Positions 55,142 through 57,228 of a stretch of 64,000 bases of DNA are shown in pieces. The notes under the pieces are model-generated. The model had not been told where the DNA came from. It saw only the letters and a list, made by a program, of their open reading frames with translations, and did not search any database. A program made the translations under genes and the position numbers. The DNA is from Allorhizobium ampelinum S4 (lineage in GTDB: Bacteria > Pseudomonadota > Alphaproteobacteria > Rhizobiales > Rhizobiaceae). The stretch covers positions 682,001 through 746,000 of the forward strand of contig NC_011988.1 in NCBI RefSeq assembly GCF_000016285.1, given 5' to 3'. Within the stretch, counting starts at the first letter, position 1; every line of letters begins with the position of its first letter.

Positions 55142-55636
<495 letters not shown>

Positions 55637-55637
55637 T

Positions 55638-55657
55638 CAGCCAAACAGAGTTGGCTG
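55638..55657 (-). promoter_or_regulatory. Hairpin in the riboswitch expression platform of ribH2
   Basis: CAGCCAA and TTGGCTG form a perfect 7-bp stem with a 6-nt loop, followed on the minus strand by CCTTGAAAGG, itself a small palindrome that contains the ribosome site, then the ATG at 55618. This arrangement points to control at translation initiation rather than transcription termination. Confidence 0.5.
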
Positions 55658-55750
55658 GAACACCGCACGGAGGCGGCAAATTTTCCCTTGGGCGAACAGC
55701 AGGGCACACCCGTTCGGGAGACGGATCTCCGCTGGGGTATTTCCTGCATG

Positions 55751-55887
55751 CTCTCTTCCATCCGGACTATACCGTCGGCTCCGGCATCGCACCGGATCTG
55801 CTGACCTCCCAGGTTGCCCTGAAAGCGCTCGCGGGCTCCGGGCAAGCCCGATACCGCCGGTGGGGAATTTCACCCCGCCCTGAGAAC
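55751..55887 (-). ncRNA. FMN riboswitch (RFN element)
   Basis: On the minus strand it opens with GTTCTCAGGGCGGGGTGAAA and runs through CCCCACCGGCGGTA, AGCCCGCGAGCG, GGTCAGCAGATCCGGT and CCGGAGCCGACGGTATAGTC, ending with CCGGATGGAAGAGAG. These are the conserved blocks of the six-stem FMN aptamer in the right order. It lies about 130 nt upstream of ribH2 and lowers its expression when FMN is abundant. Confidence 0.96.
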
Positions 55888-55952
55888 AGTTATAACATAG
55901 AATTGAAGTTGCAGAAATTGCAAGGCCGTTTTTCTCATTATTCGGTAGGTTA

Positions 55953-56023
55953 GTGGTCCGATTCCGACATTTGCCTCCGTTTGCAGCACCCTCGAGAGCA
56001 AATGTCGGAATTTTCAGGACCAC
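55953..56023. repeat. Long palindromic hairpin element, left copy
   Basis: GTGGTCC (55953-55959) pairs with GGACCAC (56017-56023), and TTCCGACATTTGC (55962-55974) with GCAAATGTCGGAA (55998-56010). The loop contains GCAGCACCCTCGAG. It is an inverted, diverged copy of the hairpin at 56040-56118. Confidence 0.85.
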
Positions 56024-56039
56024 GAGCAGGTCTCTGTTT

Positions 56040-56118
56040 CTAGTGGAATTTAAGAATTTGACATTTGATCCTCGAGGGTGCGGCAAGGGGGTATCAAATG
56101 TCAAATTCATTCCACTAG
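56040..56118. repeat. Long palindromic hairpin element, right copy (inverted)
   Basis: CTAGTGGAAT (56040-56049) pairs with ATTCCACTAG (56109-56118), and GAATTTGACATTTGAT (56054-56069) with ATCAAATGTCAAATTC (56093-56108). The loop contains CTCGAGGGTGCGGC, complementary to the loop of the left copy. Its right end supplies the TAG stop codon of the LysR gene (56115-56117). Confidence 0.85.
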
Positions 56119-57014
56119 CGTCTGTCGGCCGCGGTTTCTTCCAATATCCAGTCTCGAAACGCCTGCAAAGGTGGGTGTGAACCACGTTCATTCGGCCAGA
56201 CGAGATAATAGGCCTCCGTGCTTTGCATCGGCCGGTCGATGGCCTTGACCAGGCGACCGGAGGCCATTTCCTCTTCGATCAGGAATTCAGGCAGCAGCGC
56301 GACGCCAAGTCCTGCCATCGCGGCTTGAGCGGCTGTCGCAAACTGGTCGAACAACATGCCGCGCACCTGGTCGGATTGCACGTCATTGCTGGCAAGCCAG
56401 CGTTCCCAGGCATCGGGGCGGGTGGTGAGATGAAGAAGAGGGGCCTGGCGCAGATCCAGCGGTGTCTGAAACCGGTAGGTGTCGCGCAACTCAGGGCTAC
56501 AGGCGGGAATGACGGTTTCAGAGCGCAGCAGCGACATTTCCGCGCCCTGCCAATCGGCCAGACCGAAGTGAATGGCAGCATCGACCGGTTCCAGCCGGAA
56601 ATCGAAATAGGAAAGCTTGGTGACGAGATTGATGGTGATGCCGGGGTGGCGGCTGAGAAATCCCGGCAGGCGCGGGGCCAGCCATCGAGTGCCGAAGGTG
56701 GGCAGGATGGCGAGATTGAGCGTCCCTCCGAACGGATTGGCCTTCAGCGTTAGCGATGCGGTGCTGATAATCCGCAGCGCATCGCGGATTTCGCGGGCAT
56801 AGATATTGCCGCCTGCCGTCAGCCGGATCGTCTGGCGTTCACGGTGAAACAACTCGACGCCGAGCTGTTCCTCCAGCGCCTTGATCTGCCGGCTGACCGC
56901 GCTTTGCGTCAGGCTCAATTCCCGCGCTGCCGCCGTGACGCTGCCGGTGCGGGCCGCGGCCTCAAAAGCCGAAAGAAGATGCAGGGATGGCAGGAAACGG
57001 CGGGGACTTTGCAT
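56115..57014 (-). CDS. LysR-family regulator (GcvA type)
   Basis: 299 residues from the ATG at 57014. The helix-turn-helix is in 'SLHLLSAFEAAARTGSVTAAARELSLTQSAVSRQIKALEEQLGVELFHRER' (about 8-58). The effector domain has the GcvA-group pattern 'FGTRWLAPRLPGFLSRHPGITINLVT' and 'GLGVALLPEFLIEEEM'. It is divergent from the pipecolate-oxidase-like gene, with 214 bp between, and probably activates it. The stop codon lies in the terminal CTAG of a palindromic repeat, so the gene end may have been reset by insertion. Confidence 0.91.
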   Translation of the reverse strand: MQSPRRFLPSLHLLSAFEAAARTGSVTAAARELSLTQSAVSRQIKALEEQLGVELFHRERQTIRLTAGGNIYAREIRDALRIISTASLTLKANPFGGTLNLAILPTFGTRWLAPRLPGFLSRHPGITINLVTKLSYFDFRLEPVDAAIHFGLADWQGAEMSLLRSETVIPACSPELRDTYRFQTPLDLRQAPLLHLTTRPDAWERWLASNDVQSDQVRGMLFDQFATAAQAAMAGLGVALLPEFLIEEEMASGRLVKAIDRPMQSTEAYYLVWPNERGSHPPLQAFRDWILEETAADRR

Positions 57015-57228
57015 GGAGGCTCCGGGTATCACCAGATCAGATGAGAATATGAGATCGTCTTCTATAGGCGGTCTTTTGCCTGAGGTCATTCCATTTGGGA
57101 AAGAACTCTTGCAGAAACATCGATAATTGCGCACTGGCGGACTGGTTCAGCACTTGCTAGTGTTTTGGCAGAATAATTGCTGCCGTTTTGCCCGGCTTCC
57201 GGTTCGGTTGCGATATAAGGGAACTGTC

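Follow-up and report, generated by a model that had tools for sequence, protein, structure and literature searches.

A twin-hairpin repeat of the Alphaproteobacteria is very probably a non-autonomous mobile element of IS630 type

Introduction

The window analyzed here, a stretch of 64,000 nucleotides from Allorhizobium ampelinum S4, contains a short element located between a LysR-family regulator gene (positions 56115..57134, minus strand; assigned with Pfam, its TAG stop codon at 56117-56115) and the FMN riboswitch (55746..55891, minus strand; a whole-length match of 118.9 bits against a gathering score of 66.2) of a downstream ribH-like gene encoding 6,7-dimethyl-8-ribityllumazine synthase (55142..55633, minus strand; PF00885). 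The riboswitch begins some 60 bp away from the insertion and stands immediately before this single lumazine synthase gene (55142-55891, minus strand); an ABC transporter cluster and the LysR gene adjoin. The initial annotation of this locus read the element as two inverted hairpins with covarying stems and complementary loops, and proposed either a structured RNA, which could engage in kissing or long-duplex contacts, or a REP/BIME-like pair. The locus raises the question of whether its paired hairpins reflect a function of RNA or the movement of a DNA element.

Structure of the Twin-Hairpin Element

The two hairpins are arranged head to head, separated by a 19-nt linker, and are indeed inverted, diverged copies of one design, as had been proposed from the sequence of the window. 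Hairpin H1 (55953..56023, plus strand) has an outer stem GTGGTCC...GGACCAC and an inner stem GATTCCGACATTTGC/GCAAATGTCGGAATT, while hairpin H2 (56043..56115, plus strand) combines an outer stem GTGGAAT...ATTCCAC with an inner stem GAATTTGACATTTGAT/ATCAAATGTCAAATTC. The segment 55930-56140 folds at -85.7 kcal/mol, compared to -55.9 ± 4.25 kcal/mol for shuffled sequences, none of which was as good in 200 trials (z = -7.0). The outer (5′) arm of H1 follows the pattern GTGG-9nt-GACATTTG, like the right end of a clade of IS630 transposons, and the outer (3′) arm of H2 presents the same pattern on the minus strand. The inner (3′) arm of H1 carries a 4-nt bulge, TTCA (56013-56016, plus strand), which is mirrored by the bulge TTAA (56050-56053, plus strand) in the inner (5′) arm of H2. 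The linker (56024..56042, plus strand) reads GAGCAGGTCTCTGTTTCTA here and roughly CTAGCAAnnnTATGnTTCTAG in relatives, and alignments reveal that its length is conserved and its sequence partly so. The element spans 163 bp between two TA dinucleotides (55951..55952 and 56116..56117), identified as copies of a duplicated target by comparing the empty and filled alleles of sister genomes. It is gene-free, and all open reading frames of at least 80 amino acids that overlap it enter from outside. The reported lack of a transposase is accurate for the element and for the three neighboring genes tested, in which Pfam identifies a LysR regulator, a lumazine synthase and a DAO-type oxidoreductase.

Distribution of the Element

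The genome that contains the window (6.32 Mb, seven contigs) harbors four near-full copies of the element with 94–100% identity, one of them with a decayed left end, as well as several further partial or single-hairpin copies. An exact-pattern scan of named genomes yielded 21 stretches, 19 of them in A. vitis, Allorhizobium taibaishanense and Rhizobium paknamense; the other two (L035 and L038) lack the hairpin and look like chance matches. Within the genus, the element is present in at least 15 of 63 genomes. Searches with a covariance model (R1, E ≤ 0.001, own genome counted) matched 74 of 397 genomes and 36 of 142 genera of the order, 15 of 385 genomes of the class and 13 of 398 genomes drawn from the phylum, every one of the latter inside the same class; these draws overlap, and the scoring of at most seven candidates per genome makes copy numbers lower limits. 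Most listed matches span the whole R1 model, at approximately 160–170 bp, and twins are also found on plasmids of Martelella, Agrobacterium, Rhizobium, Sphingobium, Aminobacter, Ochrobactrum and Bradyrhizobium. The copies are dispersed at non-homologous sites, as those of a miniature inverted-repeat element (MITE) would be, and constitute a single dispersed repeat family.

Two associations with neighboring repeats were also observed. One locus (G135:C6:173391-173719) contains two tandem twins with 3 bp in common, an arrangement that insertion of a new copy into the terminal TA of an older one would produce and that suggests use of the element's own terminal CTAG as a target. In addition, a palindrome TGCATCGATCCAAAC...GTTTGGATCGATGCAC abuts several copies (L004, L005 and L054 and, judging by flank letters, L126 and L141-L143), indicating that small repeats form mosaics.

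Empty Sites and Target Duplication

The site occupied in the window is uninterrupted in five sister genomes (G055, G056, G058, G060 and G061), four of which have TA at the target position. In two sisters the empty allele reads GGTAGGT-TA-GCGTCTG, corresponding to GGTAGGT-TA-[GTGG...CCAC]-TA-GCGTCTG in the filled one. Nine predicted empty junctions, used as queries, recovered uninterrupted alleles for seven further sites; for the remaining two (L128 and L132), no empty allele was present among the matches listed. At six of the eight sites with empty alleles, a single TA in the empty allele becomes TA...TA in the filled one. Among the alleles fetched as loci, to which this reading applies, TA is seen in four of five at the window site (L001), three of four at L134 and all of those at the other four TA sites. 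The empty alleles of L003 and L131 have TG, TT or CT instead of TA, which may be the outcome of later mutation or of a different target. The element hence enters as a single piece; in six of the eight sites its target is TA, often as part of CTAG, and TA is left on both sides. The same TA of the window site is occupied in two other genomes, G004 and G057 (L090 and L091), by a different insert of about 61 bp with GTTTGTCAGGGAAAAGTGGAATCCGGTTTTCCCGAAAAGACAAAC; a related stretch of about 100 bp occurs in many copies per genome in the clade, mostly with at least 90% identity.

In five of the eight empty alleles (the window site, L133, L134, L135 and L138), the target TA forms the start of the stop codon that closes a gene-length frame, with 313, 266, 523, 111 and 533 codons, respectively, two of these frames running off the fetched locus. 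The stop codon of the empty allele is TAA for the LysR gene and TAG at the other four sites, and it is TAG in all the filled alleles because both ends of the element start with G. G061, whose allele is empty, has TAA as its LysR stop at the same place, whereas the TAG next to the window copy is composed of the duplicated TA and the terminal G of the element; the insertion has thus changed the stop codon and left the end of the protein as it was. The other three sites present no long frame (L002), an insertion 15 nt past a stop (L131) and an insertion 17 nt before a stop, which therefore alters the last codons (L003). Furthermore, three annotated plasmid copies start or end in the annotated stop codon of a gene, encoding a sugar-binding protein in Bradyrhizobium, an RraA-family protein in Agrobacterium and a hypothetical protein in Rhizobium.

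Across all copies, 64 long open frames enter 103 flanks and 37 of them stop at the junction TAG, but these flanks cannot be counted as independent and the frame itself imposes TAG; only the eight empty-site cases were therefore used to evaluate a stop-codon bias. We do not claim active targeting. The window contains 20 CTAG, compared to 236 expected from base composition (about 12 times fewer), and three of them, including the element's own junction, lie at stop codons. Given this rarity and placement of CTAG, the loss of insertions inside genes could suffice to generate the observed pattern.

Relationship to IS630 Transposons

A search of plasmids with the 30-nt outer end of H1 returned, among weak matches (E = 5), a sequence of Paracoccus liaowanqingii. 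The match coincides precisely with one end, flanked by TA, of an insertion sequence lacking annotation, two ORFs of which match the IS630 transposase model NF033545, and this end, GTGGTCCGAGTCTGACACTTGCTACCG, is identical to the H1 outer end at 19 of 22 positions. Relatives of this transposon were selected by the similarity of their transposases, not of their ends (10 of 700 matching records). In the Rhodobacterales these transposons have right ends resembling GTGTTCYGAGTCTGACRCTTG, and in Bradyrhizobium elkanii the right end resembles GTGTTCTGACTCATTCATTTGCATCCC and the left end is GTGTTCTGTCACTGACATTTGAATCCC.

End profiles were built from 69 H1 and 68 H2 arms of 71 twin copies. On the H1 profile, five right ends (L321, L322, L323, L329 and L330) score 17.7–24.3 bits (17.7–22.6 for those other than L321), compared to a background maximum of 3.1 bits in 2918 windows and to 9.8–36.6 bits for the element's own copies. 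Weaker right ends score 7.9–13.0 (L324-L327), 6.4 (L331) and -15.8 bits (ISRjo2, L328), and nine of 11 right ends favor the H1 over the H2 profile. Left ends, on the other hand, reach at most 10.1 bits on the H2 profile, against 9.2 for a control, and favor it over H1 in only six of 11 cases; the left end of B. elkanii obtains 15.9 bits on the H1 profile, higher than on H2. Among 12 control ends of six other IS630 transposons, a single one exceeds the background (the left end of L099 in the own genome, with 10.3 bits on H1 and 9.2 on H2), so that part of the likeness is general to IS630 ends. Taken together, these comparisons make a good case for the H1 outer end being related to the right end of an IS630 clade from other genomes, which does not represent an exact parent, whereas the H2 end lacks a clear counterpart.

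The IS630-type transposons of genomes rich in the element share its insertion habit: all 12 for which ends were found (among 30 loci) lie in (C)TAG and start with G. The own genome has two IS630 kinds, one in (C)TAG starting with G and another (L094-L098) that starts with C and lies outside CTAG. Contigs C2, C3 and C6 of this genome hold several copies of such IS630-type transposons (L094-L106), one kind having ends CTA-GTCACCKGAATCTGAAG in CTAG and being possibly IS870-like.

A resident parent was sought in several ways. The own genome yielded 14 DDE_3 matches, none with the ends of the twin among the ends found. Of 22 element-rich genomes, 13 lack any DDE_3 match at E ≤ 1e-3, which suggests that the parent is often absent today; candidates from the nine with matches were discarded, since all the ends found (12 of 30 loci) differ from those of the twin. 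Scans of seven and of two genomes for end pairs, with a pattern that sees 9-nt arms only, detected no transposase between end pairs at the length of an insertion sequence. Two end pairs in G201 were examined as candidate parents and rejected: one of 1.25 kb corresponds to two decayed twins around pur genes, and one of 2.1 kb (L226) to a twin and a single hairpin with two cytochrome-like ORFs between them.

Arm Spacing and Single Hairpins

The outer and inner arms of the twin differ in the spacing between GTGG and GACATTTG. Among the 71 copies examined, this spacing is 9 nt in the outer arms of all 66 detected H1 and of 65 of 66 detected H2, compared to 12–14 nt in the inner arms of 66 of 68 detected H1 and 62 of 66 detected H2. 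Each outer end lies in a near-perfect hairpin, owing to the inverted copy of that end located just inside. In keeping with the idea that only the outer ends are good transposase substrates, several single-hairpin copies have two arms of the outer type (L006, L182, L183 and L184, and three pairs in G201, the latter detected with a pattern that sees 9-nt arms only), and at two loci G056 has a bulged single hairpin where G058 or G060 holds a twin. Bulged single hairpins are also found at sites without a known twin (L005 and L176), and this counts against the idea that only outer ends are used.

Covariation and Alternative Explanations

The covariation originally claimed from two hairpins stands up to statistical analysis of larger alignments. 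In 31 aligned twins, 97.7% of the cells pair, compared to 92.3 ± 0.3% after shuffling, and 17 of 47 pairs have changed on both sides, compared to 7.3 after shuffling and with none of 500 shuffles as high. The window copy supplied the structure, giving it a slight advantage, and related copies inflate tests of this kind. The signal is lost when the partner is slid by one to three columns. A second alignment, of 71 twins from fetched loci (71 of 71 given matched) fitted to the model, contains 3216 Watson–Crick, 36 G-T, 42 A-C and 36 other cells, and 29 of its 47 pairs show at least two Watson–Crick types, each in at least three copies. One-sided mismatches display no strand bias, with 14 G-T and 14 A-C in the 31 twins and 36 and 42 in the 71, although this test would lose power if transcription of the copies could proceed from either strand. 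For an RNA made from a single strand, G-U should be better tolerated than A-C. The equal frequency of both mismatches hence indicates that what is maintained is an inverted repeat in DNA, and not the pairing of an RNA.

Such symmetry could conceivably arise by mutation alone, through template switching in imperfect palindromes that copies one arm onto the other, with neither the symmetry nor the bulge being selected. This proposal concerns the hairpins and is compatible with a MITE. It accords with the lack of strand bias (36 G-T to 42 A-C) and with the observation that each hairpin is symmetric even though the outer arms of H1 and H2 differ, only 512 of 711 cross-paired cells being Watson–Crick. 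Template switching would tend, however, to erase the offset of about 4 nt in the inner arms, which is preserved across orders in the 66 of 68 and 62 of 66 detected arms mentioned above, and hairpins without a bulge do exist (L113 and L183). On balance, we consider this explanation rather unlikely, while granting it appreciable weight.

The REP/BIME-like pair envisaged at the outset would be moved by a RAYT, an IS200/IS605-like HUH transposase acting on single-stranded hairpins. The inverted pair of bulged hairpins, with its linker and its frequent location beside or at gene ends, is reminiscent of such systems. REPs are palindromes of 20–40 bp in which one end carries a GTAG or CGTC tag (PMC3733652), whereas the hairpins described here measure about 70 bp and mostly have CTAG at both outer ends. 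Together with the TA duplicated on either side and the IS630-like end of H1, which point to a MITE of DDE type, these differences make a RAYT-driven origin very improbable.

The reading as a structured RNA, in which the hairpins and kissing loops of a small RNA, a cis-regulator or an attenuator are under selection, draws on the strong fold and the strong covariation, and fares somewhat worse still. A G-T excess would be expected for an RNA of this strand, and the one-sided changes are balanced in both alignments. The loops of the window copy, GCACCCTCGAG and CTCGAGGGTGC, are exactly complementary, as had been noted, but this property is not conserved: a complementary run of at least 9 nt occurs in just five of 71 twins, as does one of at least 11 nt, the window copy included, and mean loop complementarity is 4.9 nt within a twin, 4.55 nt between twins and 4.25 nt with shuffled loops. 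In one copy (L125), a typical frame encloses a wholly different H2 loop (GAGTGCTGCGCATGACGAAACCGAGGCTC), indicating that loops vary freely. Kissing loops thus suit only a few copies, and long-range pairing between H1 and H2 was rejected in view of the much poorer cross pairing of their arms (512 of 711 and 502 of 711 cells Watson–Crick in the 31 twins, against 1405 of 1453 within hairpins). Rfam assigns no family to the element at its gathering score; four miRNA families appear at E ≤ 10, all far under threshold (24.1 bits at best, against 70). Furthermore, some sister genomes lack the element at each of the eight sites read. The kissing or long-duplex RNA initially suggested is hence at odds with both the loops and the mismatches, and a selected RNA structure of any of these kinds appears highly improbable.

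Membership in the rhizobial repeat RIME1, which has a length of 106–109 bp and two large palindromes, is very unlikely: the two palindromes, the rhizobial host and the location mostly outside genes agree, but the length differs, and model R1 (E ≤ 1, under stricter filters and without a positive control) matched nothing in pSymA and pSymB of S. meliloti 1021 (3.04 Mb), replicons on which RIME copies are expected.

Discussion

The evidence gathered here makes it very likely that the twin-hairpin element is a non-autonomous transposable element, a MITE, of the IS630/Tc1-mariner type. Under this MITE model, an IS630-family transposase supplied in trans would cut both outer ends, with their 9-nt spacing between GTGG and GACATTTG, while the inner copies, in which the conserved bulge maintains a spacing of about 13 nt, would escape cleavage, so that the pair would move as a unit. 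Only the outer ends would then be good transposase substrates, a prediction that derives from the arm spacing of aligned copies. The terminal G at both ends would always remake TAG upon insertion in the TA of a stop codon, rendering such insertions nearly harmless and allowing them to persist, and the single hairpins would be products of recombination between short direct repeats.

A broader proposal, which we advance tentatively and would rate somewhat short of probable, is that these elements constitute an undescribed, class-wide family of twin-foldback MITEs. In such a family, the ends would have been copied inward as inverted repeats about 4 nt out of register, presenting the transposase with two good ends and two decoys; the pair would move as a unit, and the terminal G would make the element self-terminating in stop codons. 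Several orders would have retained this architecture, in many cases with no parent transposon resident in the genome.

The identification of a mobile DNA element replaces what had seemed a puzzling "covarying RNA," and carries a more general implication: even strong covariation does not by itself prove RNA function, and counts of one-sided G-T and A-C changes can separate DNA from RNA. For this family, empty sites are now documented, one clade stands as a candidate for the parent, and end spacing (9 nt vs. 13 nt) provides a rule that can be tested. Its behavior also accounts for insertions located exactly at stop codons, which is relevant to gene annotation in rhizobia, agrobacteria and their relatives.

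The known systems nearest to the twin include the IS630 clade represented by L321, L322, L323, L329 (ISAzs31) and L330, with which it shares the TA flanks, a terminal GTG and, at the best ends, a block like GACA or CATTTG that follows after about 9 nt. The likeness of the right ends of this clade to the H1 outer end extends, in L321, through GCTACCG. In contrast, these transposons measure about 1.15–1.21 kb and code for a transposase, their left ends have no clear H2 match, and the right end of L321 lacks the inverted end copy that would form a hairpin. IS870 of Agrobacterium vitis requires CTAG, from which it acquires its stop codon; the twin shares with it the CTAG target and the TAG stop at the junction, although IS870 is an autonomous insertion sequence. 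REP/BIME systems with a RAYT also feature an inverted hairpin pair with a linker beside genes, but the twin has larger hairpins, a TA duplication and an IS630-type end, and no GTAG or CGTC tag was seen in it.

Among smaller elements, RUP, NEMIS/Correia, ERIC and Nezha duplicate TA. Like them, the twin is a gene-free, palindromic sequence in the range of 70–300 bp, located beside genes and with TA on each side, and RUP, NEMIS, ERIC and Nezha are named among bacterial MITEs (PMC3733652). A MITE of IS630 type is a known kind of element. Unlike these four, however, the twin comprises two full foldbacks whose order is fixed, together with a conserved linker and offset inner arms, and it is present in many families of one class; as far as we can tell, this twin-foldback design with offset inner arms and its class-wide breadth are new.
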